Origin: Pseudooceanicola aestuarii
GTDB taxonomy: Bacteria; Pseudomonadota; Alphaproteobacteria; Rhodobacterales; Rhodobacteraceae
NCBI RefSeq assembly: GCF_010614805.1
Contig: NZ_JAAFZC010000001.1
Coordinates: forward strand, 2,702,522-2,766,521
Reading direction: 5' to 3'
DNA length: 64,000 nucleotides
Shown: in pieces, positions 7,704-43,169 of the stretch
How the letters are laid out: each line of letters opens with the position of its first letter
Numbering within the stretch: the first letter of the stretch is position 1
Notes under the pieces: model-generated
The model's database searches: none
Seen by the model: the letters and a program-made list of their open reading frames with translations, nothing else
What the model was told of the DNA's origin: nothing
Translations under genes and position numbers: made by a program

Positions 7704-7724
7704 GCTTATCCGGAGAGAACGTGC

Positions 7725-10652: not shown

Positions 10653-10665
10653 GCGTCCGGGTCGA

Positions 10666-25361: not shown

Positions 25362-26021
25362 CTACTTTCGCGGACCGTAGCCGGCAAAGGCGGTGACGAC
25401 CTCCGCCACCTGCGCGTCGGTCAGGATCACCGGCGCGCCGCCGGTCTGCGACAGCAGGAAGACGCGGGCGAGGTTCTCCAGTTCTTCCATCCGCCACAGG
25501 GCGCGCGCGATGCTTTCGCCGACGACGGTGGCGCCATGCCCGGCCATCAGGCAGCCGTGGCGGTCGGCCATGGCGGTGGCGACATATGCGGCCAGCTCGG
25601 AACTGCCGAACAGCGCATAAGGGGCCAGCGGGACATCCCCGCCGCCAAAGGCCGCCACCATGTAATGGCAGGCCGGAATGGCACGGTTCTGCATCGCCAC
25701 GGCGGTGGCATGGGCGGGGTGGGCATGGACCGTGACATGCATGTCGGGCCGCGCGGCCATCACCGATTGGTGGAACCGCCATTCGGAGGAGGGAGTCAGA
25801 TCGCCCTGCGGTTGCGCCGCGCCCTCGGTCGGCAAACGCACGATCATGTCGGGGGTCATCACGTCATAGGGCACGCCGGAGGGGGTGATCAACAGGCTGT
25901 CGGCCACCCGGACGGAGATGTTCCCCGAGGTGCCCTGATTGATGCCGCGCGCGTTCATCCAGCGACAGGCGTCGATGATCTCTTGGCGGGTGGCGGTGGT
26001 ATCGGCATAGGCGGTGGTCAC
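25362..26021 (-). CDS. Class II aldolase/adducin-family sugar-phosphate aldolase
   Basis: A 219-residue zinc aldolase of the fuculose-phosphate type. Visible active-site elements: GINQGTSGNISVR (phosphate-binding loop, residues 26-38), Glu80 in PSSEWRFH (catalytic acid/base position), His99 and His101 in VHAHPAH and His162 in MAGHG (the three zinc ligands). Beside mtnK and mtnA it is most simply the Ald2-type enzyme of the DHAP shunt. That enzyme cleaves 5-methylthioribulose-1-phosphate or 5-deoxyribulose-1-phosphate to DHAP and (methylthio)acetaldehyde. The start is a GTG at 26021 in a GTGA overlap with the regulator gene. It is the last gene of the minus-strand operon. MtnB dehydratase belongs to the same fold and is the main alternative. 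Confidence 0.87.
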   Translation of the reverse strand: MTTAYADTTATRQEIIDACRWMNARGINQGTSGNISVRVADSLLITPSGVPYDVMTPDMIVRLPTEGAAQPQGDLTPSSEWRFHQSVMAARPDMHVTVHAHPAHATAVAMQNRAIPACHYMVAAFGGGDVPLAPYALFGSSELAAYVATAMADRHGCLMAGHGATVVGESIARALWRMEELENLARVFLLSQTGGAPVILTDAQVAEVVTAFAGYGPRK

Positions 26022-27007
26022 GCGGGATCATCCAGAAGTTGGGCAGCGATATCGGAGCTGGTGGCAAGGTGGGTGGCATAGCCGCCGCGCAGGGCGGCGC
26101 GGGTGGCGGCGACGCGATCGGCTCCGGCGGCCACCAGAAGGGCGGTGGACTTCGCCGCCATCTGGTCCAGCGTGACGCCGATCAGGCGATCCTCGTTGCC
26201 CGAGACCATGGGCTGCCCCTGCGCGTCGATCAGCCGCCCGCAGATCACGCCGGTGGCGCCGCGTGCGCGCAACGGTGCCAGGCCCGCGGCATCCAGCAGG
26301 CCGGTGCGCACGATATGGCTGTCATCAGTGCAGGTGCCGGCGGCAAAGACGACCTTGTTGCATTCGGCCACGGCGCGCAGCTGTTCGGCGACCACCGGTT
26401 CGGCTTTCAATCGGGTGCAGAGGTCGCGATCCGACAGCAGCAGCGGCACATGCAGGTTGATGCACAGCGCGCTGAAGCGCAGCGCCAGCGTGGCCGAACA
26501 GGCCTCGGCGGCGAAGCCGAGGGAGGCGGGGCGGGAGCCCAGCAATTGCACCACGGTCAGGTCATCGACAGCGACCTGCGGCGCGGCCTCCGCCAGGTTG
26601 TAGATCGTCTCGCCCCAGGCGACGCCCAGCCGGTCGCCGGGTTCCAGCAGTTCGGGCAACCAGTCGGCGGCGGCGCGGGTGACGCGTGTGACGGCGCGAT
26701 CGGGATCGCCTGCGGGCACCACCAGCGCGTCGTCGAGATCAAAGGCGGCCTTCAGGCGGTTGGCCAGCGCGCTGGTTCGAAAGATCGCGGTATCCAGCGA
26801 AATCCGAACGTAGTGGCGGCGCCGCGCCTCGGCCAGATAATTCACCACCGAGGCGCGGCTGACCCCCAGCCGCTGCGCGATGTCGTTCTGGTTGAGCCCT
26901 TCGTGATAATAGCACCAGGCGGCTTCGACGATGGCCTCGTCCTGCCGCGCGGCGCGGCCGTCCGGGTCCGAGACCGGACGCCCGCGCGAGGTGGACATCG
27001 GGCTCAC
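26018..27007 (-). CDS. SorC/DeoR-type sugar-binding transcriptional regulator
   Basis: A 329-residue regulator of the SorC family: a short N-terminal helix-turn-helix (about residues 22-62, YYHEGLNQNDIAQRLGVSR) and a large C-terminal phospho-sugar-binding domain of NagB/RpiA-like fold (VAWGETIYNLAEA, VICGRLIDAQGQPM). Such proteins sense a phosphorylated sugar made by the pathway, here presumably the MtnK or MtnA product. The start could be a GTG at 27007 (GGAG seven bases upstream, overlapping the mtnA stop region) or the ATG at 26998 (MSTSRGRPV); the former has the better ribosome site. It lies inside the mtnK-mtnA-aldolase operon. The palindrome between the divergent units (29429-29443) is the obvious candidate operator. 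Confidence 0.88.
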   Translation of the reverse strand: MSPMSTSRGRPVSDPDGRAARQDEAIVEAAWCYYHEGLNQNDIAQRLGVSRASVVNYLAEARRRHYVRISLDTAIFRTSALANRLKAAFDLDDALVVPAGDPDRAVTRVTRAAADWLPELLEPGDRLGVAWGETIYNLAEAAPQVAVDDLTVVQLLGSRPASLGFAAEACSATLALRFSALCINLHVPLLLSDRDLCTRLKAEPVVAEQLRAVAECNKVVFAAGTCTDDSHIVRTGLLDAAGLAPLRARGATGVICGRLIDAQGQPMVSGNEDRLIGVTLDQMAAKSTALLVAAGADRVAATRAALRGGYATHLATSSDIAAQLLDDPA

Positions 27008-27011
27008 CCGA

Positions 27012-28117
<1,106 letters not shown>

Positions 28118-28121
<4 letters not shown>

Positions 28122-29377
28122 AGCACGTCCTTTCCGTTATGCTGGCGCGCCAGGTCCGTCAGGGCGCGCGGGCTGTCGATCTTGGCCGCGTTCAGGATCA
28201 GATCGCGCCCCATCATCAGGTTGCGCGCCTCCAGCGGGGCGCGAATGGCGGGGTCGGCGATCTCTTCGAAATCGGCGTTATGCGCGAGAGAAAGGCAGCG
28301 GCGGTGCATCTCGATCCCGCAGATGGACACCGCATCCTGCCAGATCTCGGCCAGCAGTTCGGTGCGCGCGGCGGCCGAGCTGTGGCCCTGATCCTCGAAC
28401 AGGGCAGCGGGGTAGAGCATCCCTGTCCGCTCGTTGTCCCACAGGCGGGTGAATTCGGCCTCATAGGCAGCAAAGGTGCCCTCGATCACCTCAAGCAGCC
28501 AATCCTGATAGGCGGCCAGATCATCGCCGCGATGGCCCGGCTGGCTGAAATAGGCCATCAGGTAATTCGCCGTCAGCATCCCGATGTCAAAGCCCAGCGG
28601 GCCGTATTGCGCGAATTCGGGGTCGATGACGCGCACGTCATCCTCGGTCGCCATGACAGAGCCGCTGTGCAGGTCGCCATGGAGCAGCGTTTCGGTATTG
28701 GCGGAGAATTTCAGCAGCATCCGCTGCGCCCGCGCCTTCAGCGCCGGATCGTCGCGCAGGATCTTGATCACCGGGTCAAGACCGGGGGTGTGGTTGTTCA
28801 GCTCTGCCTCGAAATAGGGATCGGTGAAGACCAGCCCCTCGGTGATGGCGGGGATTTCCACATTGCCGGAGAAGAGGCCCACATCGGCCTTCTTGTCCGC
28901 GCTTTTCATCGACAGTTCCGACCCGCGAAAGCCGGTGCGGGCGCAGAACAGGCCCAGCCGTTCGGCCAGCCCGTCGACGCGTTCGCCGGCGATCAGCTTC
29001 TGGCGCAGGATGCGATGCGGGGACAGGAATTCCATCACCACCAGCGCCTGCGTCTCGTCGAAATGCCAGACCTCGGGTACGGCGCCGGGATCGCGCGCGG
29101 CCTCCCGCGTCAGGGCGTGGTATTCGTAGAAGGCGCGGTACAGCGGCAGCGGCCAGCTGTCGCCCACCAGCCGCACGTAGGGCAGGGCCTGTTTGACGAT
29201 GGCAGCGCCCTGCGGCCCCTTGACGATGAACACAAGGTTCAGATTGCCGTCGCCGACCTCCTGCACGTCCCATTGCGTGGGATCGGGACCGACCTTTCCG
29301 GCCAGCAGGTCGATCCCCGCGAGCCGCGCGCCCAGCGTTTCGGCCGTCAGCGGTTCATACGCATCCTTGGCTGTCAT
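28118..29377 (-). CDS. mtnK: S-methyl-5-thioribose kinase
   Basis: A 419-residue kinase with a choline-kinase/APH fold that phosphorylates 5-methylthioribose at C1 using ATP. The MtnK pattern is clear: [15 protein letters not shown] (residues 40-54, nucleotide loop), [17 protein letters not shown] with the ATP-binding Lys62, [12 protein letters not shown] with the catalytic Asp235, and [17 protein letters not shown] (residues 250-266, metal-binding DxE). The ATG at 29377 has GGAGGAG ten bases upstream. It is the first gene of the minus-strand operon, 145 bases from the divergent transporter. It may also accept 5-deoxyribose, as MtnK homologues of the DHAP shunt do. Confidence 0.94.
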
Positions 29378-29428
29378 GCGACGATTCTCCTCCGGTTTTT
29401 CGCGAACATTCCATCACGTTCTACAATA

Positions 29429-29443
29429 GTCAATCCAATTGAC
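29429..29443. promoter_or_regulatory. Candidate operator in the divergent promoter region
   Basis: GTCAATCCAATTGAC is a perfect six-base inverted repeat with a 3-base spacer. It sits in the AT-rich centre of the 145-base region between mtnK (minus) and the transporter ATPase (plus). It is placed so that one bound regulator could control both operons. The SorC-type regulator is the likely ligand; this is inference from position. Confidence 0.5.
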
Positions 29444-29522
29444 AAACGACAGTCGGGGCGGAATATAGGGCGTCGCAGCCCCTGTTTCGGGCCGCGATAC
29501 CTGGAGGGGGCCCGGAGGGGGA

Positions 29523-31043
29523 ATGACGGATACAGCCTGTAAAATCAGGGATCTGAAGAAATCGTTCGGCCAGAATCATGTTCTGCGCGGAATCGATCTG
29601 GACCTGCACCCGGGAGAGGTGACCGTCCTGATGGGGGCCAATGGCGCGGGCAAGTCCACGCTGGTCAAGGTGCTGTGCGGCTATCACGGCCGCGACGCCG
29701 GCACGATCGAGCTGGGCGGCCAGCCCTATGAGCCCGTGGATGCCGCCGATGCCATCGGCAAGGGCGTCGTGACGGTGCACCAGAACATCAACGACGGCGT
29801 GATCCCCGATCTGGACGTGGCGACCAACCTGACCCTGGACCGTCTGACAGGGTCGGGTGCACGGCTGTTCGTGCGTGACCGCGCCTTGCGCCGGGAGGCC
29901 ACCCGCGTGGCCGAGGGCATGGGCCTGACCATGGATGTGCGCACCCGCGTTGCCGATCTGGACGTGGCGGATCGCCAGATGATCGCCATCGCCCGCGCCA
30001 TGGCCCGCGCCCCGCGCATCCTGATCCTGGACGAGCCGACCTCCTCCCTTTCCGCGACGGAGGCGGAGCGGCTGTTCCAGCTGATTGACCGTCTGCGGGA
30101 GCAGGGGGTCGCGATCCTCTACATTTCGCACCGCATGTCCGATATCCGCCGCGTGGCGGACCGGATCGTGTGCATGCGCGACGGCGCGATCTCCGGCCTG
30201 TTTTCCGAGGCGCCGCTGGATTACGAAGGCGCGGTCTCGGCCATGCTGGGCCACCGGATGACCGATGTGGACATCGATCCGCAGCCCGGCACAACCCCGG
30301 TGTTGGAGTTGACGGGGCTGAAGCTGAAGGTCGACAGCGCGGCCATCGATCTGACCGCCCGCGATGGCGAGGTTGTGGCGATCACCGGGCTGCTGGGCAG
30401 CGGCAAGACGCGGCTGGCGGAGATCCTCTTTGGCCTGGCGCAGCCGGTGGCGGGCACCATGCAGATCGACGGAGCCGCCTATGCCCCCGGATCCGCGCGC
30501 GAGGCGGTGGGACGGGGCGTCTTCATGTCGCCCAAGGATCGCGGCTCCAACGCGGTGATCCCTGATTTCGACATTGCCGACAACATGACGCTGCCGTTTC
30601 TGGGCGCGTTCAGCCGTCTGTCCTTTCTGACCCCGCGTCGGCAGGCGCGCGTCACGGACGAGATGATCGCCCGCATCGGCATCGTCTGCCAGGGCGGCAC
30701 CGACAGCATCCTGACCCTGTCTGGGGGCAACCAGCAGAAGGTGATGATCGGTCGCTGGCTGATCGAGCCGGCACGGGTGCTGTTGCTGGACGAGCCGTTC
30801 CAGGGCGTGGACATCGGCGCACGCCGCGACATCGGCCGCCATATCCGCAACTCGGCCAAGGGCCGGGCCACGATCGTCTTCGTCGCCGAAATCGACGAGG
30901 CGCTGGAAATCGCCGACCGCATCATCGTGCTGAACGAAGGCGCGATCGCCGGAGAACATATCAATCAGAACATCGACCTTGCCGCGCTGGTCTCCCAGGT
31001 TTCGGGACCGGCGGGGCAGAGCGTCGGGGCAGAGGGACGATAA
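29523..31043 (+). CDS. Ribose-type (CUT2) sugar ABC transporter, double ATPase
   Basis: A 506-residue protein with two ATPase domains, as in RbsA. Domain 1 has Walker A GANGAGKST (about residues 40-48), a weak signature DVADRQMIAIARAMA and Walker B ILILDEPTSSLSA. Domain 2 has the reduced Walker A TGLLGSGKTRLAE, the signature LSGGNQQKVMIGRWL and VLLLDEPFQGVD. The asymmetry is normal for the family. The ATG at 29523 follows a purine-rich GGAGGGGGAATG. The stop overlaps the permease start (TAATG, 31041-31045). It is the first gene of the plus-strand operon of importer, mutarotase, transketolase pair and RuBisCO-like protein; the substrate is inferred to be 5-methylthioribose or a related pentose. 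Confidence 0.93.
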   Translation: MTDTACKIRDLKKSFGQNHVLRGIDLDLHPGEVTVLMGANGAGKSTLVKVLCGYHGRDAGTIELGGQPYEPVDAADAIGKGVVTVHQNINDGVIPDLDVATNLTLDRLTGSGARLFVRDRALRREATRVAEGMGLTMDVRTRVADLDVADRQMIAIARAMARAPRILILDEPTSSLSATEAERLFQLIDRLREQGVAILYISHRMSDIRRVADRIVCMRDGAISGLFSEAPLDYEGAVSAMLGHRMTDVDIDPQPGTTPVLELTGLKLKVDSAAIDLTARDGEVVAITGLLGSGKTRLAEILFGLAQPVAGTMQIDGAAYAPGSAREAVGRGVFMSPKDRGSNAVIPDFDIADNMTLPFLGAFSRLSFLTPRRQARVTDEMIARIGIVCQGGTDSILTLSGGNQQKVMIGRWLIEPARVLLLDEPFQGVDIGARRDIGRHIRNSAKGRATIVFVAEIDEALEIADRIIVLNEGAIAGEHINQNIDLAALVSQVSGPAGQSVGAEGR

Positions 31044-32056
31044 TGGGCAACGAACGGCTGCTGAATTTCGCCATCAAGTATGGCTTCCTGATCCTGTTGG
31101 CGGCGCTTGTCGTCTACTTCAGCCTGAACAGCAATGGCTTTGCCTCGCCACGCTCGGCGGTGTTCATCCTGCAATCCGTGGCGATCACCGGGATCCTGGC
31201 GCTTGGCGTGACCTGCACGCTGGTGGTGGACGGGTTCGACCTGTCCATCGGCGCGGTCGCGACCTCGGCCTTGATGCTGTCGGCCTATGTCATGGTGGTG
31301 CTGGAAATGTCGGCGGGCATGGCGATCCTGCTGTGCCTTCTGATGGGCGCGGCCGTGGGGCTGGTCAACGGGCTGTTGATCGTGAAGTTCCGGGTGCCCG
31401 ACCTGCTGGCGACGCTGGGGATGATGTTCCTGCTGATCGGCCTGCAACGGATCCCGACGCAGGGCAATTCCATCGCCACCGGCATGTCGCTGCCCGACGG
31501 ATCCAACGCCGAGGGCACGTTCTCGCCCGCGTTCCTGTGGCTGGGCCGGCACCGGATGGATTTCTTCCTGGAGAACCTGCTGCCCGTTCCGGTGGTGATC
31601 TTCCTGCTGATCGCCCTGGGCGTCTGGCTGTTCCTGGGGTTCACGCGGCAGGGGCGGCTGATGTATGCCATCGGCTCGAACGAGCGGGCGGCGGGCCTCG
31701 TGGGGGCGCCGGTCAACCGCTACAAGGTCATGGCCTACATGATCTCGGGGGTCATGGCCTCCATCGGGGGGATGCTGCTGGCCGCACGGCTGGGCCGGGG
31801 CGATATCGCCTCGGGGACCAACCTGCTGCTGGACAGCGTGGCCGCCGCGCTGATCGGCTTTGCCGTGCTGGGCGCTGCGCGGCCCAATGCCTTCGGCACC
31901 GCGACGGGCGCGCTGTTCGTGGGGATCCTGTTGCAGGGTCTGACGATGATGAACGCGCCCTATTACACGCAGGATTTCGTGAAGGGGGCGGTGCTGGTCA
32001 TCGCGCTTGTCTTCACGTTCTACCTGTCCTCGCGCCGTGGCGCGACGGGCAAGTGA
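31043..32056 (+). CDS. Ribose-type (CUT2) sugar ABC transporter, permease
   Basis: A 337-residue inner-membrane protein with eight to ten helices and the RbsC pattern. GVTCTLVVDGFDLSIGAVA (residues 55-73) corresponds to the conserved GGIDLSVG segment, and AIGSNERAAGLVGAPVNRYKV is the cytoplasmic coupling loop. The central loop with IPTQGNSIATGMSLPDGSNAEG is long. The gene begins in a one-base overlap with the ATPase stop. It forms the channel together with the double ATPase and the binding protein that follows 28 bases later. Confidence 0.93.
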   Translation: MGNERLLNFAIKYGFLILLAALVVYFSLNSNGFASPRSAVFILQSVAITGILALGVTCTLVVDGFDLSIGAVATSALMLSAYVMVVLEMSAGMAILLCLLMGAAVGLVNGLLIVKFRVPDLLATLGMMFLLIGLQRIPTQGNSIATGMSLPDGSNAEGTFSPAFLWLGRHRMDFFLENLLPVPVVIFLLIALGVWLFLGFTRQGRLMYAIGSNERAAGLVGAPVNRYKVMAYMISGVMASIGGMLLAARLGRGDIASGTNLLLDSVAAALIGFAVLGAARPNAFGTATGALFVGILLQGLTMMNAPYYTQDFVKGAVLVIALVFTFYLSSRRGATGK

Positions 32057-32084
32057 TCTCAGGGGAACCAAGGGAGGACCCAAC

Positions 32085-33125
32085 ATGTTCAGACGCAACT
32101 TTCTGAAATTCACCGGCGCTGCCGCCATCGCGCTGTCGGCCGTTCCGGTCGCGGCTGCGGACATGCCCGCGCCGTTCGACAATGCGGGCGAGGTGAAGAT
32201 CGCGCTGGTGCGCTATCTCTCCACCGGCGATTTCTTCCAATCCTACCTGTCTGGCGTGGAACAGCAGGCCGCCGCCATCGGCGTGGATCTGCGGGTGCTG
32301 GACAGCCGCCAGGATGCCGCGCTTCAGGCCGATATGGTCGATCAGGCCATCGCCCTGGGCGTGGACGGGATCATTATCCAGCACGGGCTGACCGAATCCA
32401 TGAAGCCGGCCGCACAGCGCGCGGTGGATGCGGGCATCAAGGTCGTGGCCTTTGACGTCGATGTCGAAAACGACGCCATCCCCCAGGTGGAGCAATCCGA
32501 CTACCTGCTGGCCAAGCTGGCGCTGGACCAGGCGATCGAGGATCATGGCAACGGCTTTACCGCCGGCTATGTCTACGTCCCCGGCATCGCGCCACTGGAC
32601 CGTCGTGACGTCGCCTGGAAAGAGGTGAAGGAAGCCAACCCCGACATCACCGAAGCCGCGCAATTCGGCACGCTGGACAACCCGATCGCCAATTCGGTCG
32701 CCAACCAGGCGCGGTCCGTCCTTCAGGCCAATCCGATGATCAACGTCATGTTCGCGCCGTTCGACGAATTCGCCAAGGGCGTCAAGATTGCCGTGGACGA
32801 GGCCGGGCTGACCCAGGACATCGACATCTATTCCGCCGATGTCTCCACTGCCGACATCTCGGCCATGCGGGAGCCGGACAGCGCCTGGGTGGCCACCGTT
32901 GCCACCAACCCCTCCGTGGTGGGCGAAGTCTCCGTCCGGGCGCTGGCGCTGATGCTGGCGGGTGAAATGCCGGGCGAAAGCATCGTCGTGCCGCCGACGC
33001 TGATCACCCAGGATTTCCTGAACGAGAACGACGTCAAGAACATGGAAGAGCTGGGCGCCAAGATGCCGCAGTTCCAACATGCCGACGTCGCCATGGCCGA
33101 GTGGATGCCGCTTCCGGCACGCTAA
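32085..33125 (+). CDS. Ribose-type sugar ABC transporter, periplasmic binding protein
   Basis: A 346-residue exported protein of the periplasmic-binding-protein-like I fold. A signal peptide with a Tat-like RRNFLKFTG start (MFRRNFLKFTGAAAIALSAV) is cleaved near VAAADMP. The body has VKIALVRYLSTGDFFQSYLSGVEQ, LDSRQDAALQADMVDQAIALGVDGIIIQ and the second-lobe strand INVMFAPFDEFAKGVKIAVDE, all as in RbsB-like proteins. The ATG at 32085 has AGGGAGGA eight bases upstream. An open frame from 32007 overlaps the permease gene and is not used. The bound sugar is not known; the locus argues for a 5-substituted ribose. Confidence 0.92.
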   Translation: MFRRNFLKFTGAAAIALSAVPVAAADMPAPFDNAGEVKIALVRYLSTGDFFQSYLSGVEQQAAAIGVDLRVLDSRQDAALQADMVDQAIALGVDGIIIQHGLTESMKPAAQRAVDAGIKVVAFDVDVENDAIPQVEQSDYLLAKLALDQAIEDHGNGFTAGYVYVPGIAPLDRRDVAWKEVKEANPDITEAAQFGTLDNPIANSVANQARSVLQANPMINVMFAPFDEFAKGVKIAVDEAGLTQDIDIYSADVSTADISAMREPDSAWVATVATNPSVVGEVSVRALALMLAGEMPGESIVVPPTLITQDFLNENDVKNMEELGAKMPQFQHADVAMAEWMPLPAR

Positions 33126-33133
33126 GCTTCACG

Positions 33134-33159
33134 GGTCCGTCCCCACGCGGGGGCGGGCC
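33134..33159 (+). promoter_or_regulatory. Intercistronic stem-loop after the binding-protein gene
   Basis: An 11-base-pair stem (33134-33144 with 33149-33159, two G-T pairs) closed by ACGC lies 8 bases after the binding-protein stop. There is no T-run. Like the hairpins after phnD and the peptide-binding-protein gene, it may favour high binding-protein mRNA. Confidence 0.6.
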
Positions 33160-33183
33160 GCTTCTGACAGGAGACGCGACACA

Positions 33184-33627
33184 ATGCTGAACGGTATCGA
33201 CGGACGGATCACCCCGACCCTTCTGCATTGTCTCGCCCGGATGGGGCATGGCGACGATCTGGTCATCGCCGATGCCAATTTTGCCGCCGACAGCACCGCG
33301 CGCCATTGCGTGGTGGACCGCCCCATCCCGCTGGCCGGGCTTGATGCGGTGCAGGCCATCGACGTCATCACCGGCCTGCTGCCCCTCGACGGGTTCGGCG
33401 ATTTCGCCGCGCTGCGGATGGAAATCGACGGCGACGCGCAGGAGATGGGCGAGGTTCACCACCAGGCCTGGGCGGTCCTGCGCCCCCGCCTGCCCGAGGG
33501 CGGACAGCTGACCAATTGCCCCCGCCCCCGGTTCTACGATCACGCGAAAACCGCCTTTGCCGTGGTGCAGACGGCGGAAACCCGGCCCTTTGGCTGCTTC
33601 ATCCTGAAAAAGGGGGTCGTCTTCTGA
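33184..33627 (+). CDS. RbsD/FucU-family sugar mutarotase
   Basis: A 147-residue protein matching the FucU branch over its whole length. It begins MLNGIDGRITPTLLHCLARMGHGDDLVIADANFAADS, shown here by its key residues: His in MGHGDDLVIADANF (catalytic His and Asp), YDHAKTAFAVVQTAE with the active-site Tyr, and the C-terminal FGCFILKKGVVF. It would interconvert anomers of the imported sugar so that the kinase receives the right form; FucU acts on fucose, RbsD on ribose pyranose/furanose. The ATG at 33184 has AGGAGA eight bases upstream. It lies between the transporter and the transketolase genes on the same strand. Confidence 0.92.
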   Translation: MLNGIDGRITPTLLHCLARMGHGDDLVIADANFAADSTARHCVVDRPIPLAGLDAVQAIDVITGLLPLDGFGDFAALRMEIDGDAQEMGEVHHQAWAVLRPRLPEGGQLTNCPRPRFYDHAKTAFAVVQTAETRPFGCFILKKGVVF

Positions 33628-33721
33628 TCCCCTGAACCTGCCCGGCGGCGTGCCGCGCGGGCCCGGACCAACGGCAATCCCCCGCGCCCCGACTGGCGGC
33701 GGGAAACAACGGAGTGTTGCG

Positions 33722-34648
33722 ATGCGCAATGACAAGACGACGGAGGACGTGGCGCTCGGTATTCGGCGGCGCGTGTTCGAACACGCGATGCGGAACAACG
33801 GCGGCTATCTCAGCCAGGCCTGTTCGGCGGCTGAACAGCTGGCCTGGCTGTATCACGAGGAGCTGAAGCTGGGCGCGCCCACGCTGCCCGCCGTGCCCAA
33901 ACCGTTCGAGGGTGTGCCCTCGGCCGATAATCCCGATTACCACACCGGCGCGGGCTACAACGGCCCCTTCGCCCCGGAGTTCGACAGGCTGTTCATCGCG
34001 CCCGCGCATTACGCGCTGGTCGCCTATGCCACGCTGATCGAAACCGGGCGCATGGCACCCGAGGGGCTGGAGATGTTCAACAAGGACGGCTCCAGCGTCG
34101 AGATGATCGGCGCGGAACATTCGCCGGGCATGGAGGTGCACAACGGCACCCTGGGCATCGGCCTGTCTACCGGCGCGGGCCTGGCCTATGGCCGCAAGCG
34201 GCGCGGCGAACCGGGGCGCACCTGGGTCTTCATGTCCGACGGCGAGGTCCAGGAGGGTCAGACCTGGGAGGCCGTGCAGGCCTGTGCGCATCACGGGATC
34301 GACAACCTGTATGCCATCATGGACGTCAACGATCAGCAATGTGACGGCGCCATGGATTCGGTGATGGAAGTCGGCGACATCCGCACCAAGTTCGAGAATT
34401 TCGGCGCCCGCTGCGTCGAGGTTGACGGCCATGACCTGTCCGCCATCCGCGATGCGGCCAAGGAAACGCATGAAGGCCGGCCACTGATCATCCTGGCGCG
34501 CACCTCGCCCTTCCACACGATGTCGATCCTGGAGGAGCGGTTCCCCCGGCTGCATTACGTGCGCTTCAAGTCCGAGGACGAGCGCGCGCGCTTCAACACC
34601 TCCATCGCCGCCGATCTTGGCGTCGATCCCATCGACTACGCCCATTGA
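33722..34648 (+). CDS. Transketolase-like protein, N-terminal (ThDP-binding) subunit
   Basis: A 308-residue split-transketolase alpha subunit. The thiamine-diphosphate motif is SDGEVQEGQTWEA (residues 172-184) through ND at 203-204. EHSPGMEVHNGTLGIGLSTGAGLAYG (133-157) and the GHDLSAIRDA segment are also typical. Against ordinary transketolases the substrate-side motif SKGH is replaced by APAH (residues 93-96). The segment before it (AVPKPFEGVPSADNPDYHTGAGYNG region) is unusual, so the substrate is probably not xylulose-5-phosphate itself. The ATG at 33722 has CGGAG upstream; the frame is open to 33650. The C-terminal subunit follows after 12 bases. Split transketolases of this kind serve sugar catabolism, for example apulose-4-phosphate transketolase AptAB. 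Confidence 0.88.
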   Translation: MRNDKTTEDVALGIRRRVFEHAMRNNGGYLSQACSAAEQLAWLYHEELKLGAPTLPAVPKPFEGVPSADNPDYHTGAGYNGPFAPEFDRLFIAPAHYALVAYATLIETGRMAPEGLEMFNKDGSSVEMIGAEHSPGMEVHNGTLGIGLSTGAGLAYGRKRRGEPGRTWVFMSDGEVQEGQTWEAVQACAHHGIDNLYAIMDVNDQQCDGAMDSVMEVGDIRTKFENFGARCVEVDGHDLSAIRDAAKETHEGRPLIILARTSPFHTMSILEERFPRLHYVRFKSEDERARFNTSIAADLGVDPIDYAH

Positions 34649-34660
34649 GGAGCCCGCGAC

Positions 34661-35665
34661 ATGGTTGAAATGGTTTCCCGCCCCTATGCCTCGGCCTTCG
34701 AGAAATTCGCCGCCGGCAATCCCGACATCCTGTGCCTGTCGGCCGATCTGACCTCCTCCTGCGAGATCGACGGTTTCCGCGACCGGCATCCGGATCAGTT
34801 CATCTCCATGGGGATGGCCGAACAGAACATGATGAGCTTTGCCGGGGGGCTGGGTCTGGCCGGGTTCCGGCCCTTCATCCACACTTTCGGCGTGTTCATG
34901 TATCGCCGGCCCTACGATCAGCTGATGGCCTCGGTCGCCTATCCACGGCGCAAGGTACGGCTGATGGGCTTCCTGCCCGGCATCACCACCCCCGGCGGCA
35001 TGACGCACCAGTCGATCGAGGATATCTCGGTCATGCGGTCGATCCCCAACATGTCCATCCTGGAAACCGGCGACGCGACCGAGGTGGAAAGCATCTGCGA
35101 AGCCGCCGACAGCATTGACGGTCCGGTCTGGTGCCGTGTGCTGCGCGGGTCCGTGCCGCGCCTGTTCGACACGCCGATCAAGGTGGGGGAGATGCGGGTG
35201 CTGTCCGAAGGGGACGACATCCTGGTCGTGACCTCGGGCATCACCACGGAGGAGGCGATGCGCGCCCGGTCCGCCCTGTCCAAGGCCGGCCTGTCCATCC
35301 GGCACATCCATCTGCACACGATCAAGCCCTTCGATCACAAGCAGCTGCTGGACCACATCGGTTCGGTCAGGGGCGGTGTCGTGACGCTGGAAAACCACGT
35401 GACCGAAGGCGGCATCGGTTCGCTGGTGGCCGAGACGATGGCCGATGCGGGCGTGGGCAAACGTCTGGTCCGGCTGGGGCTGAAGGACACCTATGCCCAC
35501 GGCGGATCGCGCCCCTATCTGATGCGCTATTACGGGCTGGACGCACTGGCGCTGGTGCGTGGGATCGAGGATCTGATGGGGCAGGATTTCGGCATCTCCG
35601 AAGATGATCTGGACGCCGCCCGGGTCGAGGATGTGCATTCCCTGGTGAAGGCCGAGGCCCTGTGA
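34661..35665 (+). CDS. Transketolase-like protein, C-terminal (pyrimidine-binding) subunit
   Basis: A 334-residue beta subunit with the transketolase pyrimidine and C-terminal domains. It has the catalytic Glu in MGMAEQNMMSFAGGLGLAG (residues 47-65), GGMTHQSIEDISVMRSIPNM (the conserved GPTHQ..ED segment) and VVTLENHVTEGGIGSLVAE near 245. With the preceding subunit it forms a two-chain ThDP enzyme cleaving a ketose phosphate at C2-C3. The ATG at 34661 follows TTGAGGAG. Its stop codon lies next to the start of the RuBisCO-like gene, so the two are translated in series. Confidence 0.9.
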   Translation: MVEMVSRPYASAFEKFAAGNPDILCLSADLTSSCEIDGFRDRHPDQFISMGMAEQNMMSFAGGLGLAGFRPFIHTFGVFMYRRPYDQLMASVAYPRRKVRLMGFLPGITTPGGMTHQSIEDISVMRSIPNMSILETGDATEVESICEAADSIDGPVWCRVLRGSVPRLFDTPIKVGEMRVLSEGDDILVVTSGITTEEAMRARSALSKAGLSIRHIHLHTIKPFDHKQLLDHIGSVRGGVVTLENHVTEGGIGSLVAETMADAGVGKRLVRLGLKDTYAHGGSRPYLMRYYGLDALALVRGIEDLMGQDFGISEDDLDAARVEDVHSLVKAEAL

Positions 35666-35676
35666 TGGAGGCGTCG

Positions 35677-36801
35677 ATGGATCGCTTTTCCGTCACCTAC
35701 CGGATCGTGGCGGATGACATGGCGGATGCGGAAAGCCGCGCCGCCAACATCGCGCTGGAAGACACGGTGGAAATCCCCCGCGACGTGGTGCCCAGCGGCT
35801 ATGTCGAGGATGTGGTGCTGGGCCGGGTGGAGGAGGTCGTGCAGCAGGACGATCACGTCTTTCGCGCGCGCGTGGCCTATCACATCGACGCGGTGGGCCG
35901 GGAATTGCCGCAATTCCTGAACGTGGTGCTGGGCAATGCCTCCATCCTTGCCGGGGTGAAGGCGCTGTCGATCACCCCCAATGCCGATGTGCTGGATCGC
36001 TTTCCCGGTGCGCAATTCGGCGTCGCGGGGCTGCGCCGCCTGACCGGGCGGGACAGCGGCGGCTACGTCTGCCCGGTGATCAAGCCGCAGGGCTCCAGCG
36101 CAGAGACGCTGGCGCGGCTGTGTTACCTGACCGCGCGGGCGGGGGCCGACATCGTCAAGGAGGATCACGGCCTGGCCAACCAGGATGCCGCGCCCTTTGC
36201 CGAACGAGTCCGGCAATGTGCCGAGGCGGTGAACCGTGCCAATGCCGAACGCGCCGATGCAGGAGAGGCGACAAGATCGCTCTATTTCGCGAACCTTGGT
36301 GGCCATGGCGATCAGGTGCGCGAGATGGCCCTGCATGCGCAGGAGGCGGGCGCCCATGGCGTGCTGCTGATCCCCGGTCTTTACGGCTTCGATGCGATGA
36401 ACCGGCTGGCGCGGGATCCCGATTTCACCCTGCCGATCATGGCCCATCCCAGCCATCTGGGCCCCTATGTGCTTTCGCCTGATCACGGCTATGCGCATGG
36501 GATGCTGTTCGGCACCCTGATGCGGCTGGCGGGGGCGGATATCTCGGTCTTTCCGAACCATGGCGGGCGCTTCGGGTTCTCCCTCGCACAATGCGAGGAG
36601 ATCGTGCAGGCCTGCCGTGGTCCGGGACCGGGGGCGGCGATCCTGCCCAGCCCCGGCGGCGGGATGAGCCTGGACCGGCTGCCCGACATGATGCGTCTCT
36701 ACGGTGAGGATTGCGTTTATCTTCTGGGCGGAAGCCTGCTGCGCTACGGTGACCGGATCGGCGATGCCATCCGGGAAATGCGAAGCGCGCTGGACGGCTG
36801 A
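35677..36801 (+). CDS. RuBisCO-like protein (form IV RuBisCO large-subunit family)
   Basis: A 374-residue member of the RuBisCO large-subunit superfamily. Order of motifs: FSVTYRI (2-10), VIKPQGSSAETLARL with Lys136 (RuBisCO Lys175 position), DIVKEDHGLANQDAAPF with Lys161 (carbamate Lys201 position), Asp163 kept and His164 where RuBisCO has Glu204, then IMAHPSHLG, FPNHGGRFGFS and PSPGGGMSLDRLPDM. The changes exclude CO2 fixation and fit a form IV isomerase or enolase. The best characterised relative in a methylthioadenosine context is the Rhodospirillum rubrum 5-methylthioribulose-1-phosphate isomerase. Apionate-pathway relatives (OiaX/OiaT) are the alternative. The start is taken at 35677 (GGAGG five bases upstream); an ATG at 35665 overlapping the previous stop is possible. 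It is the last gene of the operon. Confidence 0.9.
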   Translation: MDRFSVTYRIVADDMADAESRAANIALEDTVEIPRDVVPSGYVEDVVLGRVEEVVQQDDHVFRARVAYHIDAVGRELPQFLNVVLGNASILAGVKALSITPNADVLDRFPGAQFGVAGLRRLTGRDSGGYVCPVIKPQGSSAETLARLCYLTARAGADIVKEDHGLANQDAAPFAERVRQCAEAVNRANAERADAGEATRSLYFANLGGHGDQVREMALHAQEAGAHGVLLIPGLYGFDAMNRLARDPDFTLPIMAHPSHLGPYVLSPDHGYAHGMLFGTLMRLAGADISVFPNHGGRFGFSLAQCEEIVQACRGPGPGAAILPSPGGGMSLDRLPDMMRLYGEDCVYLLGGSLLRYGDRIGDAIREMRSALDG

Positions 36802-37984: not shown

Positions 37985-38743
37985 TCATGTGGATTGAGCC
38001 GCCGGAAGGCGGGGAATGCTGGAGAGCAGCGATCGGGTATAGGCGTGCTGCGGGTCGCGCAGGATCTGCGCGGTCGGCCCTGCCTCGACGATGCGGCCCC
38101 GGTCCAGAACGACCATCCGGTCGCACAGGGCGGCGACGACGCCCATGTCGTGGGAGACAAAGACCATGGTCATGTCGCTGGCGATGCGGTCGAACAGGTT
38201 CACCACGCGCACGCGGGTGGACAGGTCCAGCGCGCTGACCGCCTCGTCCGCCAGCAGCAGGTCGGGCCGGGCGACGATGGCGCGCGCAATGGCGATCCGC
38301 TGGCGCTGCCCGCCGGAGAACTGGTGCGGATAGCGATGCAGGCTGTCGGCCTCCATGCCCACGGCGGTGATCGCCTCGGCCGCCATCTGGTGGTGATCTC
38401 CGTCGATCTTCAGCGAGCGCAGCGGTTCAGTCACGATCCGCAGAATGCGATGCGCGGGGTTGAGAGAGGAATAGGGGTCCTGGAACACCGCCTGCACCCG
38501 CCGGCGATAATCACGCATGAAACGCCGGTCGCGCGCGGCCAACGGCTGGCCGTCGAACAGGATCTCGCCCTTCTGGGGGCTGTCCAGCCCCAGCATCAGG
38601 CGCAGCAGGGTGGATTTGCCCGATCCGCTTTCGCCGATCAGCCCGACATTGGCGCCCCGCGGCACATCAAAGGTGATGTCGTCCAGCACCGGTCGCGGCC
38701 CACCGTAGGAGAAACCGACATTGCGAAGCGACATCATGGTCAT
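37985..38743 (-). CDS. Peptide/nickel-type ABC transporter, ATP-binding protein (DppF-like)
   Basis: A 252-residue ATPase with Walker [10 protein letters not shown] (about 35-43), VFQDPYSSLNPAHRI at the Q-loop, signature FSGGQRQRIAIARAI and Walker B LLLADEAVSALDLSTR. The QDPYSSLNP phrase is specific to the oligopeptide/nickel family. It is shorter than most DppF proteins (about 320 residues) and ends soon after the conserved DPQHAYTRSLLSSIP, so it lacks the zinc-cluster tail. It overlaps the upstream DppD-like gene by four bases. The product works with the sister ATPase in one importer. Confidence 0.92.
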   Translation of the reverse strand: MTMMSLRNVGFSYGGPRPVLDDITFDVPRGANVGLIGESGSGKSTLLRLMLGLDSPQKGEILFDGQPLAARDRRFMRDYRRRVQAVFQDPYSSLNPAHRILRIVTEPLRSLKIDGDHHQMAAEAITAVGMEADSLHRYPHQFSGGQRQRIAIARAIVARPDLLLADEAVSALDLSTRVRVVNLFDRIASDMTMVFVSHDMGVVAALCDRMVVLDRGRIVEAGPTAQILRDPQHAYTRSLLSSIPRLPAAQST

Positions 38744-39552
38744 TCCCCTCCCTCCAGCGCGGTGTCAAAGCGGCGCGCTGCGGTCAGCAGCTCCCGCGTG
38801 TAGGGCTGTTGCGGGGCGGTCAGCACCTGATGGGCCGGACCTTCCTCCACTGCGCGGCCATGGCGCAGCACCAGCACCCGTTCGGCCACCTGACCCACCA
38901 CGGCCAGATCGTGGGAGATGAACAGAAGCGCCAGCCCCAGCTCGGCCACCAGCTGGTTGATCAGGGCCACGATCTCCGCCTGGGTGGTGACGTCCAGCGC
39001 GGTCGTCGGCTCGTCTGCGATCAGCAGTTTGGGGCGGCAGGCCAGGGCCATGGCGATGGCCACGCGCTGGCGCTGCCCGCCCGAAACCTGGTGCGGGTAG
39101 GCCGCGACCAGCCTGTCGGGATCGGGCAGGCGCACCTGTTCCATCAGCGCCCGCACCCCGGCCCGCACCGCCGACCGCCCGGCATCGGCCCCCTCGCGCC
39201 GCAGGCGGCGGCGCAGGGGCGCGGCGATCTGGCGGCCCAGCGGCATCAGCGGGTCCAGCGCGGTCAGCGGCTCCTGAAAGACGGTGGCGACGGCGGCGCC
39301 GCGCAGGCGGTTCCTCTGCCGCTCTGACGCGGTCAGGATCGGGGTGCCGTCCAGAGTGATCGCCCCTGTGGCGCGGATCGCACCGGGCAGCAGCCCCGTC
39401 ACCGCCAGAGAGGTCAGAGATTTGCCCGAGCCGCTTTCCCCGATCAGGCCAAAGCGTTCGCCGGGCGCGATGGAGAGGGACAGATCGTGCACCAGCACCT
39501 TGTTGGCGGTGGCCAGGGTCAGCCCGTCGATGGTCAGCAGATCGGCCATCAT
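38740..39552 (-). CDS. Peptide/nickel-type ABC transporter, ATP-binding protein (DppD-like)
   Basis: A 270-residue ATPase with Walker [14 protein letters not shown] (note KSL, as is normal for DppD), [16 protein letters not shown] at the Q-loop, signature [15 protein letters not shown] and Walker [17 protein letters not shown]. The C-terminus has [16 protein letters not shown], the conserved family end. It begins in an ATGA overlap with the permease gene (39549-39552); a second ATG directly follows. It is the partner of the DppF-like ATPase. Confidence 0.92.
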
Positions 39553-40409
39553 GCCCCCCTTTGCGTCGGATCGAAGCGGTCGCGCAGGCTGTCGGCCATC
39601 AGGTTGACCCCGATCACCAGCGCAAACAGCGCCAGCCCCGGCAGCAGCGCGCCCCAGGGCGCGGTGTAGACGGTGCCCTGCGCCTCCTGCAACATGCGCC
39701 CCCAGGAGGCATTGGGCGGCGGCGCCCCCAGCCCGAGGTAGGAGAGCGAGGCCTCCGCCATCACGGCAAGGCCGAATTGCAGCGCCAGATTCACCGCCAG
39801 GAAGGGGGCGATATTGGGCAGCACGTGCCAGAAGACGATGGCCCCCCAGCCCGTGCCCGAGACCCGCGCGGCGGTGATGTAATCCTGGCCCAGCACACGT
39901 TTCGTCAGGATCCGCGTCACCCGGCCCACGATGGGCGACAGCCCGATCCCCAGGGCCAGGATGGCGGTGGAAAGGCTGGCCTCTTCCCGGGCGGCGACAA
40001 CCAGCATGGCGATCAGCAGCGTGGGAAAGGCGATCAGGATATCGAACAGCGCGGCCAGCGCATCATCGACAAAGCGCGTGGCAAAAGCCGCAAGCAGGCC
40101 GGTGACGATGCCGATGGTGCCGCCGATGGCCACCGCGCCGCAGCCCACGACCAGCGCGATCCGCGCCCCGATCATCAGCTGGGTGAACAGATCCCGGCCC
40201 AGCCGGTCGGTGCCCGCCCAATGGCTGGCGCTTGGCGGTTCCAGCCGGCTGCCGGCCATGTCGGACAGCGCATAGGGCGTCCAGAAGAACGACAGCAGCC
40301 CCGCCAGGACGATCACGCCGACCAGGATCCGGCCCAGCCAATGCACCGGCTTGCCGCGCGGACGGCGCGGGGCAGAAGCGGGCGGGGAGGTGTCGCTCGG
40401 GGTGCTCAT
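39549..40409 (-). CDS. Peptide-type ABC transporter, permease (DppC-like)
   Basis: A 286-residue membrane protein with about six helices. The N-terminal region carries the family phrase SHWAGTDRLGRDLFTQLMIGAR (here in key form HWAGTDRLGRDLF, about 63-75). The coupling loop is YITAARVSGTGWGAIVFWHV near 175 and the C-terminal part has MAEASLSYLGLGAPPPNASWG, the standard DppC signature. It overlaps both neighbours by four bases. Confidence 0.93.
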   Translation of the reverse strand: MSTPSDTSPPASAPRRPRGKPVHWLGRILVGVIVLAGLLSFFWTPYALSDMAGSRLEPPSASHWAGTDRLGRDLFTQLMIGARIALVVGCGAVAIGGTIGIVTGLLAAFATRFVDDALAALFDILIAFPTLLIAMLVVAAREEASLSTAILALGIGLSPIVGRVTRILTKRVLGQDYITAARVSGTGWGAIVFWHVLPNIAPFLAVNLALQFGLAVMAEASLSYLGLGAPPPNASWGRMLQEAQGTVYTAPWGALLPGLALFALVIGVNLMADSLRDRFDPTQRGA

Positions 40410-41359: not shown

Positions 41360-41382
41360 GATGGAAATGCCCCGTCCTGGTG

Positions 41383-41412
41383 CGCGCGGCCAACCCTGTG
41401 GGTGGCCGCGCG
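41383..41412 (-). promoter_or_regulatory. Intercistronic stem-loop after the peptide-binding-protein gene
   Basis: A perfect 10-base-pair stem (CGCGCGGCCA at 41383-41392 with 41403-41412) has a 10-base loop and sits 10 bases after the binding-protein stop and 24 bases before the permease start. There is no T-run. It is probably a partial terminator or mRNA stabiliser. Confidence 0.6.
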
Positions 41413-41421
41413 GTCAGCCGA

Positions 41422-42939: not shown

Positions 42940-43169
42940 CGGAAAATCCCTGTTCGGTTTCTTGGACTGCACCGCACCCGCGCACCCGCGCAGGCACACG
43001 GCCCTCGGGCCCGGTTCGCGCCGGCCAATACGGCGGGGCAGGGAACCCGAGGATCAGGTGCGACGCAAGGTTAGTCTCATGTCGGCCGCGCCTGCACAAG
43101 ATCAAACCGGGTACGCGGCATGTCGGTCATCCTCAGGATCGCCGGCTGGCCATGGGATGGGGCGGCAGC

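Follow-up and report, generated by a model that had tools for sequence, protein, structure and literature searches.

This locus raises the question of why genes of 5-methylthioribose salvage stand beside a RuBisCO-like protein (RLP) and a split transketolase, and which sugar chemistry such a set would carry out. We analysed a 64,000-nt stretch of Pseudooceanicola aestuarii (GCF_010614805.1, NZ_JAAFZC010000001.1, positions 2,702,522-2,766,521, forward strand), referred to here as the window, in which eleven genes at 25362..36801 form two divergent operons with an operator-like palindrome between them. We propose, with a probability of roughly 0.65, that these genes constitute a salvage or catabolic unit for free 5-substituted riboses, which would be processed successively by MtnK, MtnA, the RLP and the two transketolase chains TKN and TKC. 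Each gene that a preliminary description of this DNA had listed for the two operons was found in the sequence by NCBIfam and Pfam profiles, and the arrangement around one palindrome was seen as described.

The four genes of the minus-strand operon overlap or are separated by gaps of 4 bp. They code for proteins of the 5-methylthioribose kinase type (MtnK, 28118..29377; TIGR01767, 454 bits, cut-off 275) and the 5-methylthioribose-1-phosphate isomerase type (MtnA, 27012..28121; TIGR00512, 434 bits, cut-off 279), a SorC/DeoR-type sugar-binding transcriptional regulator (26018..27007; PF04198, 176 bits), which scores 176 bits with the DeoR repressor model against a cut-off of 420, and, as the last gene, an Ald2/FucA-like class II aldolase (25362..26021; PF00596, 185 bits). 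The trio of the DHAP shunt, MtnK, MtnA and class II aldolase, is present together at the locus, as judged from the same profiles. The aldolase passed none of the 25 NCBIfam cut-offs listed, its best match being L-fuculose-phosphate aldolase below the cut-off, and relatives with 66-76% identity occur in two near loci, G152 and G259. Its assignment as MtnB was rejected (68 bits, cut-off 137). The palindrome CAATAGTCAATCCAATTGACAAACG lies between the operons at 29424..29448 and contains the core GTCAA-N5-TTGAC at 29429-29443. Sites with up to one mismatch to this core occur twice in the window (0.91 expected), the intergenic one alone being exact. Among 19 related loci listed, 11 have GTCAA-N5/6-TTGAC as the first- or second-ranking palindrome of the orthologous intergenic region.

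The plus-strand operon starts with a ribose/AI-2-type ABC importer, consisting of an ATPase (29523..31043) that matches many sugar-importer ATPase models with none of the 25 listed over its cut-off, a permease (31043..32056; ribose permease model 154 bits, cut-off 398) and a periplasmic sugar-binding protein (32085..33125; PF13407, 116 bits); no equivalog cut-off for this kind of importer was reached among the models listed. It continues with a FucU/RbsD-family mutarotase (33184..33627; PF05025, 103 bits), which scores 64 bits with the L-fucose mutarotase equivalog model, short of the 141 required, the TKN chain carrying the ThDP (PP) domain (33722..34648; PF00456, 63 bits; nearest solved structure 6yak), the TKC chain carrying the Pyr and C-terminal domains (34661..35665; PF02779 and PF02780; nearest solved structure 6yaj) and the RLP (35677..36801; PF00016, 54 bits vs. 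30.1), which is the sole PF00016 match in the host genome. The gaps between TKN and TKC and between TKC and RLP are 12 and 11 bp. Probable starts were set by eye for the sugar-binding protein (32085), FucU (33184), TKN (33722) and RLP (35677), the open frames of the latter two beginning at 33650 and 35662.

The proposed pathway would start from 5-methylthioribose (X = SCH3), 5-deoxyribose (X = H) or both, and the sequence does not fix which. The importer would take up the sugar, and FucU would interconvert its anomers for the anomeric kinase, a step backed by a published 5-deoxyribose cluster that likewise holds a fucose-mutarotase homologue (PMC6079011). From their family assignments, MtnK would then form the 1-phosphate and MtnA the 5-X-ribulose-1-phosphate. 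MTA phosphorylase and MTA nucleosidase, both noted as absent beforehand, do not reach their cut-offs in the host genome, with one partial match of 74.5 bits (cut-off 275) for the former and 26 bits (cut-off 73.8) for the latter.

The next step is predicted to be a 1,3-isomerisation by the RLP, which would move the carbonyl to give 1-X-xylulose-5-phosphate, identical to 1-deoxyxylulose-5-phosphate (DXP) when X = H. This role is proposed because of the clade and the residues that the protein has in common with 5-methylthioribulose-1-phosphate isomerases. In our tree, 52 ingroup RLPs (40 transketolase-linked and 12 cupin-linked, including 3qfw) stood apart from four outgroup rows with support of 98/94, separating this clade from the YkrW enolases, and the cupin-linked RLPs were placed beside the alphaproteobacterial transketolase-linked ones with support of 87/85, the bootstrap of this tree not having settled. 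Transketolase-linked and cupin-linked RLPs carry the same residue in 51 of the 52 columns conserved in both sets, and many of these columns differ from two YkrW-type chains. The RLPs of R. rubrum and R. palustris (RLP1) are reported to yield 1-methylthioxylulose-5-phosphate (PMC5893883), and we predict the same 5-methylthioribulose-1-phosphate 1,3-isomerase function here, as the preliminary description had done. Identification as an MtnW enolase was rejected because the NCBIfam cut-offs were missed (124 vs. 514 and 179 vs. 409 bits), as was identification as the apionate RLP OiaX (50.8 bits, cut-off 700). Several RLP or RuBisCO-like matches were found in some Chromatiaceae genomes.

A two-chain apulose-4-phosphate transketolase is known, and one could suppose that the locus is of the apiose/apionate type, its RLP and transketolase working on branched sugars; such a specificity was named beforehand as speaking against the salvage reading. 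We regard it as barely plausible, given the distance of the RLP from the OiaX cut-off, the scores of MtnK and MtnA above their own cut-offs and the agreement of the conserved RLP columns with those of cupin-linked RLPs, although other RLP groups do work in apiose pathways (PMC6302742).

The idea that a transketolase takes the place of the R. rubrum cupin was borne out by the gene neighbourhoods: among 53 loci retrieved by the RLP, 33 contained the transketolase, 15 a cupin, none both and five neither. A cupin similar to the reference was found in none of 103 loci with transketolase and RLP, nor among the genes of the Pseudooceanicola locus. In R. palustris, the cupin gene RPA2170 is numbered beside rlp1 (RPA2169), and the cupin releases methanethiol for O-acetylhomoserine (OAH) sulfhydrylase (PMC5893883).

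The association of the genes extends far beyond Pseudooceanicola, as TKN-TKC-RLP was found in many phyla, ranging over Alphaproteobacteria, purple sulphur bacteria, Chloroflexota, Bacillota and Actinomycetota to one Lokiarchaeota MAG. RLP and transketolase genes lie on one strand in all 103 loci, and in 97 of them TKC is followed by the RLP within 300 bp, the remaining six showing gaps of 411-876 bp (L139, L149, L156, L161, L163, L168). Of the 103 loci, 54 encode MtnA and 38 encode MtnK; in one MAG (L077), an MtnA-TKN fusion of 656 aa precedes TKC and RLP, and TKN and TKC form single-chain ORFs in L113, L134 and L168. MtnA was present elsewhere in all 20 genomes tested among those with the transketolase but no local mtnA, a test that covered 20 of 53 such named loci and that control genomes also passed in 8 of 14 cases. 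No RLP was found genome-wide for three loci with the transketolase (L117, L140, L181). Among 394 genomes of the host's family, MtnK occurred in 22 of 26 with the RLP vs. 29 of 368 without it (Fisher p 2.8e-18); it was absent from the other four RLP-bearing genomes, and in G203, G365 and G1109 MtnK was absent genome-wide and MtnA absent from the loci. The survey of co-occurrence that had been suggested thus revealed an association of RLP and transketolase with mtnK and mtnA, and chance adjacency of the two operons is contradicted by this enrichment and by the recurrence of TKN-TKC-RLP across phyla. The pairing of RLP and two-part transketolase, common to many distant microbes, seems to represent an undescribed salvage route, and we found no description of such a route in the open-access literature.

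For the transketolase, we aligned 103 family members and used E. coli numbering. The ThDP positions D155 and N185 are kept in 102 of 103 (one gap), and the catalytic E411 as well as H473 in all; the donor residue H66 is kept in 88 and replaced by Q in 14. The canonical residues H26, H100, H461 and D469 are replaced by Y, M/L (M in 88, L in 14), F and G (103/103), respectively. E. coli DXS has F at the H100 position and keeps H26 and D469. Because the residue at H100 is hydrophobic as in DXS, a donor lacking the C1-hydroxyl appears probable, in line with the non-canonical donor envisaged before. A hydrophobic residue in place of H100 is known to make transketolase accept donors of the 1-deoxy type; the transketolase variants H100F and H100L are reported to show raised pyruvate use (PMC7661550). 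Thiamine enzymes are promiscuous, which counts against the proposed pathway. In canonical enzymes, H26, H461 and D469 stand at sites that bind substrate hydroxyls or phosphate, and their changes weaken the case for a phosphorylated xylulose substrate.

These residues bear on three other explanations. A supply of DXP for isoprenoids, made by the RLP from 5-deoxyribose with the transketolase as a DXS-like synthase, would fit the hydrophobic H100 position, the rank of DXS as second-best NCBIfam model for TKC (160 bits, below the cut-off of 466) and a survey in which 172 of 181 candidate Dxs-less species lacked a named replacement (PMC10663253). We consider it highly improbable, because a separate dxs gene is present in the host genome (789 bits against a cut-off of 466), the D469 position is D in E. 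coli DXS and G throughout the family, and regulator and importer suggest catabolism. It is likewise improbable that the locus handles ordinary ribose or nucleosides (X = OH), with ribose-1-phosphate converted to ribulose-1-phosphate by the MtnA-type enzyme, to xylulose-5-phosphate by the RLP and then by a dedicated transketolase into the pentose phosphate pathway: M/L for H100 in 102 of 103 members, Y for H26 and G for D469 would be odd for a xylulose-5-phosphate donor, and MtnK and MtnA exceed methylthioribose equivalog cut-offs. The ribose-type importer agrees with such a role, as does a nucleoside-fed variant in Ponticoccus, whose phosphorylase is of the ordinary purine-nucleoside type (305 bits, cut-off 218), so that unmodified ribose is possible there; assignment of this enzyme as MTA or methylthioinosine phosphorylase was rejected (58 and 53 bits, far under cut-off). 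A Vibrio variant has FGGY kinases and neither MtnK nor MtnA in the stretch read. Finally, the transketolase fold predicted from sequence and the frequent presence of aldolase or aldolase/SDR genes nearby would suit a true transferase, handing X-CH2-CO to an aldose or aldose phosphate and leaving the 1-substituted ketose to be broken by another enzyme, perhaps an aldolase/SDR. This appears rather unlikely, since the changes at H26, H461 and D469 relative to E. coli TktA would fit a lost polyol acceptor and since no reference-like aldolase was seen in 13 MtnA-bearing loci for which 3 kb or more could be read on each side.

In the pathway that we prefer, TKN/TKC is instead predicted to cut the C2-C3 bond, which would yield glyceraldehyde-3-phosphate and X-CH2-C(OH)=ThDP. 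The latter would most likely be protonated and released as X-CH2-CHO (acetaldehyde or methylthioacetaldehyde) for further conversion by aldehyde dehydrogenases. An aldehyde product is suggested by four Anaerolineae loci. One of them (L146) has BMC, EutN/CcmL and CcmP-like shell genes and an aldehyde dehydrogenase gene upstream of TKN-TKC-RLP, its product being near the acetylating acetaldehyde dehydrogenases (TIGR02518, 564 bits, cut-off 620), and L109, L112 and L115 carry the same set by similarity; the aldehyde could also have another source beyond the stretch read. For X = SCH3, a serious alternative is the elimination of methanethiol, leaving 2-acetyl-ThDP and thence acetate, acetyl phosphate or acetyl-CoA. 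Comparable eliminations are the loss of sulphite in sulfoacetaldehyde acetyltransferase and of water in phosphoketolase. In that case, both transketolase and cupin would serve to free methanethiol for O-acylhomoserine sulfhydrylase, which agrees with their same position beside the same RLP type and with the reported cupin product (PMC5893883). A link to sulphur is also seen in an Alicyclobacillus operon for a Cys/Met PLP enzyme, MtnK, MtnA, TKN, TKC and RLP, and the L131 operon, with corrinoid methyltransferases, also speaks for methanethiol release. However, the PLP enzyme, of the methionine gamma-lyase/OAH sulfhydrylase family, passed none of the 25 listed NCBIfam cut-offs and may be a methionine gamma-lyase, and the aldehyde dehydrogenase of the microcompartment loci would be superfluous, and we therefore rate methanethiol release as a minority possibility.

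The aldolase of the minus-strand operon would be a parallel exit from the MtnA product via the DHAP shunt, and since this exit already exists, the RLP/transketolase branch may look redundant in the host's family, where 29 genomes have MtnK without RLP. Aldolase genes occur in 25 of the 54 MtnA-bearing loci with transketolase and RLP and, after extension, in 10 of 12 more; the parallel aldolase is found in alphaproteobacteria and is missing from loci of other lineages in the stretch read. Clostridium ljungdahlii, for example, has the module without an adjoining aldolase. The two routes might be independent and share one importer and regulator, with the aldolase serving 5-deoxyribose and RLP/transketolase 5-methylthioribose, or the reverse. 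We give this considerable weight, somewhat short of even odds: R. palustris operates its Ald2 and RLP1 routes in parallel (PMC5893883) and the Pseudooceanicola locus carries both, but the role of the transketolase is left unexplained, and the aldolase-free loci suggest that RLP and transketolase are complete by themselves.

Tentatively, and at just under an even chance, RLP and split transketolase may form a third RLP branch, perhaps the most widespread one, for salvaging SAM by-products, in which a thiamine-dependent 1-X-xylulose-5-phosphate lyase would turn the carbon of 5-methylthioribose or 5-deoxyribose into glyceraldehyde-3-phosphate and acetaldehyde or an acetyl unit (plus methanethiol if X = SCH3), inside a microcompartment in Anaerolineae, the R. 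rubrum cupin shunt being a later local substitute. If the proposed pathway is right, it would provide roles for an entire group of RLPs and for an unassigned transketolase family across many bacteria, purple sulphur bacteria among them. It would also explain how such organisms dispose of 5-methylthioribose and 5-deoxyribose by a route that needs neither oxygen nor the cupin, and it predicts that a thiamine enzyme carries out a new reaction on DXP-like sugars. The role of the A. vinosum RLP has been termed unclear (PMC11267869). With so few genes, the module lends itself to direct assay.

Among known systems, the MTA-isoprenoid shunt of R. rubrum and R. palustris (RLP1 and cupin methylsulfurylase) shares the MtnA product, the RLP clade and the conserved residues. 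It ends in DXP and methanethiol, whereas the Pseudooceanicola locus has a split thiamine enzyme at the place of the cupin, entry by import and MtnK, and glyceraldehyde-3-phosphate and a two-carbon unit as expected products. The DHAP shunt (MtnK/MtnP-MtnA-Ald2) of Bacillus thuringiensis and E. coli ATCC 25922 resembles the locus in MtnK, MtnA, the class II aldolase operon, regulator and importer, but the cluster descriptions consulted contain no RLP or transketolase genes; the aldolase is one of two exits here, and RLP/transketolase occur without it in other lineages in the stretch read. Transketolase steps on 5-deoxyribose-derived sugars are reported for 5-deoxyadenosine salvage, leading to 7-deoxysedoheptulose in Synechococcus and suggested for M. 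jannaschii; in Synechococcus, a promiscuous transketolase uses 5-deoxyribose as its acceptor (PMC8102628), whereas the Pseudooceanicola enzyme is a dedicated, altered one linked to an RLP. The split transketolase of Carboxydothermus hydrogenoformans (6yak/6yaj) likewise has two chains, ThDP motifs, H473 (103/103 in the RLP-linked family) and H66 (88/103), but H26, H100 and D469 are changed in the RLP-linked family, and the H461 column is T in Carboxydothermus and F in that family. DXS is similar in the hydrophobic residue at H100 (F in E. coli, M/L here) and differs in keeping D469 and H26, which are G and Y here. Finally, the SPU-type microcompartments, in which a DeoC aldolase forms acetaldehyde and glyceraldehyde-3-phosphate (PMC8217296), share the acetylating-type aldehyde dehydrogenase, the CcmP-like shell protein and the Anaerolineae hosts with our four loci, which differ in containing TKN-TKC-RLP in the stretch read, the main text of that paper mentioning neither transketolase nor RuBisCO-like protein.

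The genes for MtnK, MtnA, a SorC-type regulator and a class II aldolase follow each other in this order on the minus strand from position 29377, overlapping or spaced by at most 4 bp, and those for an ABC ATPase, a permease, a binding protein, FucU, the two transketolase chains (TKN, with the ThDP domain, and TKC, with the Pyr and C-terminal domains) and the RuBisCO-like protein (RLP) run on the plus strand from position 29523. A palindrome with the core GTCAA-N5-TTGAC lies between them at 29429-29443, which bears out the two divergent operons around one palindrome of the preliminary description in gene order, strands and position. Both MtnK and MtnA exceeded the curated equivalog cut-offs, and a PF00016 search of the whole genome found the RLP of the window as the sole protein. 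GTCAA-N5/6-TTGAC ranked within the top two palindromes in 11 of 19 orthologous intergenic regions, out of 20 chosen; of the others, one (L030) contained a wider-spaced palindrome, two provided no sequence and five showed none, and in the window itself the ranking script placed two G+C-rich palindromes above the GTCAA core. The mtnK/ABC intergenic regions of loci L031-L052, L092 and L095 contain an operator-like CAAATGTCAA-N5/6-TTGACATTTG common to several loci of Rhodobacteraceae and Rhizobiales. The main promoter of the DHAP shunt of E. coli is described as overlain by CAAAT-N9-ATTTG (PMC12632272), which loosely resembles the palindrome of the window. Downstream and on the opposite strand (37985-42999, minus), putative genes of a peptide-type ABC importer were recognised from translations judged by eye.

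Isomerisation by RLPs, the MtnK/MtnA reactions and the DHAP shunt are already known. For an RLP paired with this transketolase, no description appeared in the titles and opening abstract lines of the open-access papers listed, in keeping with the earlier remark that the route was not a recognised one. Judged from sequence, the module is best placed as an RLP-based salvage of 5-substituted ribose with a new partner of predicted catalysis.

An adjacency of the two operons by chance had been named as an alternative, together with a genome survey for co-occurrence. Among 394 genomes of the family Rhodobacteraceae, RLP was present in 26, MtnK in 51 and both in 22 (Fisher odds ratio 64, p 2.8e-18, uncorrected for kinship), assuming that both searches covered the identical genome set, as the handles agree. 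MtnK, MtnA, importer and SorC genes were repeatedly found in varying order in 20-kb stretches around RLPs. A genome scan with a TKC alignment confirmed 570 stretches, and in 70 of the best 80 of these an RLP shared the stretch with TKC, that of L105 being incomplete where its contig ends. The contigs of L104 and L135 terminate shortly after TKC, and for the remaining eight of the best 80, an RLP of this type was encoded elsewhere in the genome in five and not in three. TKC and RLP were co-stranded in all 103 loci holding both, and the RLP began no more than 300 bp from TKC in 97 of them; this set counts apparently one contig twice (L076 and L160), and L033 and L049 are near-copies with several genes 95-99% alike. 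Chance adjacency was rejected by the RLP-MtnK co-occurrence and the recurrence of TKC-RLP loci, and the survey thus revealed a non-random linkage. Where mtnA was missing locally (53 named loci), MtnA exceeded its cut-off genome-wide in 20 of 20 tested genomes, compared to 8 of 14 controls. In L077 (7152-9119, minus), MtnA and TKN are fused in frame to one 656-aa open frame, and TKN and TKC form a single polypeptide of 647-667 aa in L113, L134 and L168. The RLP match of genome G156 contains one in-frame stop.

Sequence comparisons gave strong matches to solved relatives; the closest solved chain to the RLP of the window is 3qfw, which we infer to be R. palustris RLP1. In trees, the transketolase-linked RLPs and those linked to a cupin (the R. 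rubrum-type methylsulfurylase partner), 3qfw among the latter, clustered together and were separate from both the YkrW-type chains and the remaining RLPs. The same residue was present in 51 of the 52 columns conserved in both sets, i.e., in at least 93% of 92 transketolase-linked and at least 85% of 17 cupin-linked rows. R. palustris RLP1 is reported to convert 5-methylthioribulose-1-P to 1-methylthioxylulose-5-P and 1-methylthioribulose-5-P at 3:1, in common with its R. rubrum counterpart, and 1-methylthioxylulose-5-P accumulates when the cupin is lost (PMC5893883). Because of the shared clade, the conserved residues and the activity of R. palustris RLP1, the same type of isomerisation, from 5-methylthioribulose-1-P to 1-methylthioxylulose-5-P, is predicted for the transketolase-linked RLPs, including that of the window. 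The alternative of a specificity for apiose- or apionate-type sugars was checked with the apionate RLP model, and the scores for both this and an MtnW enolase identity were far from the cut-offs.

A ThDP enzyme in place of the R. rubrum cupin had been suggested beforehand, and the 53 loci retrieved by RLP itself (all matches outside the window's own, plus 6 plasmid records taken from the 60 that matched the RLP) agree with this: 33 contained TKC, 15 the cupin, none both and five neither. Two of these five are short or cut contigs (L032, L084), and the RLPs of the remaining three (L091, L094, L101) group with other RLPs in the tree. In L093, from another class, an RLP 45% identical to that of the window has a cupin alongside. 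Cupin-linked RLPs were nested within the range of transketolase-linked ones (87/85), and the tree tentatively favours a transketolase-linked ancestral state with a derived cupin state; a topology with all transketolase-linked RLPs on one side was not rejected (AU p 0.373).

We compared 103 transketolase sequences of this family using E. coli TktA numbering. H26 is replaced by Y in 102 (one gap), H100 by either M (88 sequences) or L (14 sequences; one gap), and H461 by F and D469 by G in all 103, and H473, E411 and R520 are retained throughout. H66 is conserved in 88 sequences and exchanged for Q in 14, and R358 is conserved in 76 and exchanged for K in 24. The alignment column adjoining H100 has a one-residue gap; E. 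coli DXS aligned likewise shows F at H100, matching the literature. H66, H100, G114 and H473 are described as donor-binding residues, H100 being Phe in DXS, and the transketolase variants H100F and H100L as more active with pyruvate (PMC7661550). The donor of TKN/TKC would be an RLP-supplied 1-deoxy- or 1-methylthio-xylulose-5-phosphate, which lacks the C1 hydroxyl. A supply of 1-deoxyxylulose-5-phosphate (DXP) for isoprenoids was discarded for the genome of the window, which has its own dxs. The same transketolase signature occurs next to a class II aldolase, with no adjoining RLP, in L132, L140 and L181; an RLP is encoded elsewhere in the genome of L132, and none was found genome-wide for L140 and L181. 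These transketolase-aldolase pairs perhaps represent a sister pathway.

An aldolase or aldolase/SDR resembling the references was present in 25 of 54 MtnA-bearing loci with transketolase and RLP. Twelve alphaproteobacterial loci first scored as aldolase-free were extended, revealing an aldolase in 10, two of them with the window-type enzyme. No reference-like aldolase was found within the stretches of 13 MtnA-bearing loci for which 3 kb or more of flanking sequence was covered on each side (L033, L049, L077, L108, L114, L116, L118, L124, L125, L137, L138, L153, L162). Because of these two outcomes, the aldolase is, as far as gene neighbourhoods indicate, a regular companion in the family Rhodobacteraceae and often not beside the module elsewhere.

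Four entry variants were distinguished. A sugar importer with MtnK and MtnA is present in the window, plasmids of Rhizobiaceae and Devosiaceae, Clostridium ljungdahlii and C. drakei. In Ponticoccus alexandrii, genes for a BMP-family importer, a phosphorylase (PNP), an amidohydrolase, MtnA and a molybdopterin enzyme precede TKN-TKC-RLP. The amidohydrolase matched models for deaminases of 5'-deoxyadenosine and of MTA/SAH without reaching the cut-offs, and the phosphorylase scored above the cut-off for ordinary purine-nucleoside phosphorylase and far under those for MTA and methylthioinosine. Because of these scores, the predicted functions show entry as a nucleoside and do not imply its 5'-modification. 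TKN-TKC-RLP stand alone in the stretches of Chromatiaceae and of the Rhodobacteraceae genomes G365 and G1109, the latter two with no MtnK genome-wide. Finally, a Vibrio nigripulchritudo plasmid (L053) carries a divergent TKN-TKC-RLP set alongside an SDR and FGGY kinases, with both MtnK and MtnA missing from the stretch. Of all terminal branches in the RLP tree, that of the L053 RLP is the longest.

As for the two-carbon unit, methanethiol may be released, to which a Cys/Met PLP enzyme in an Alicyclobacillus operon would correspond. Clustering of neighbours yielded mostly families without clear meaning, a microcompartment set excepted, and the gene 3' of RLP gave no lead (an extracellular solute-binding protein family in L103 and L109, the two Chloroflexi/Anaerolineae loci scanned, and a pentapeptide-repeat protein in Heliophilum). 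In L131 (3273-12123), genes for MtaA/CmuA-type corrinoid methyltransferases, a corrinoid protein and an AcsV-like activator lie immediately 5' of TKN-TKC-RLP. The microcompartment set consists of four Anaerolineae MAGs (L109, L112, L115, L146), in which TKN-TKC-RLP are preceded by an aldehyde dehydrogenase gene together with shell genes of the EutN/CcmL, BMC and CcmP-like types (about 4700-13300 of each); families were scanned in L146 and assigned to the others by similarity. The L146 enzyme best resembles acetylating acetaldehyde dehydrogenase, with a score below the cut-off of that family. Divergently oriented MtnK-like and importer genes are present in three of the four, the L115 stretch stopping short of MtnK, and these loci possibly represent an undescribed microcompartment type. 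SPU microcompartments are described as using DeoC to produce acetaldehyde and glyceraldehyde-3-phosphate (PMC8217296). Because the microcompartment loci carry an aldehyde dehydrogenase and the expected products match those of the SPU type, the comparison favours a release of the two-carbon unit as an aldehyde: RLP and transketolase would yield the same two products as SPU microcompartments, but from DXP.
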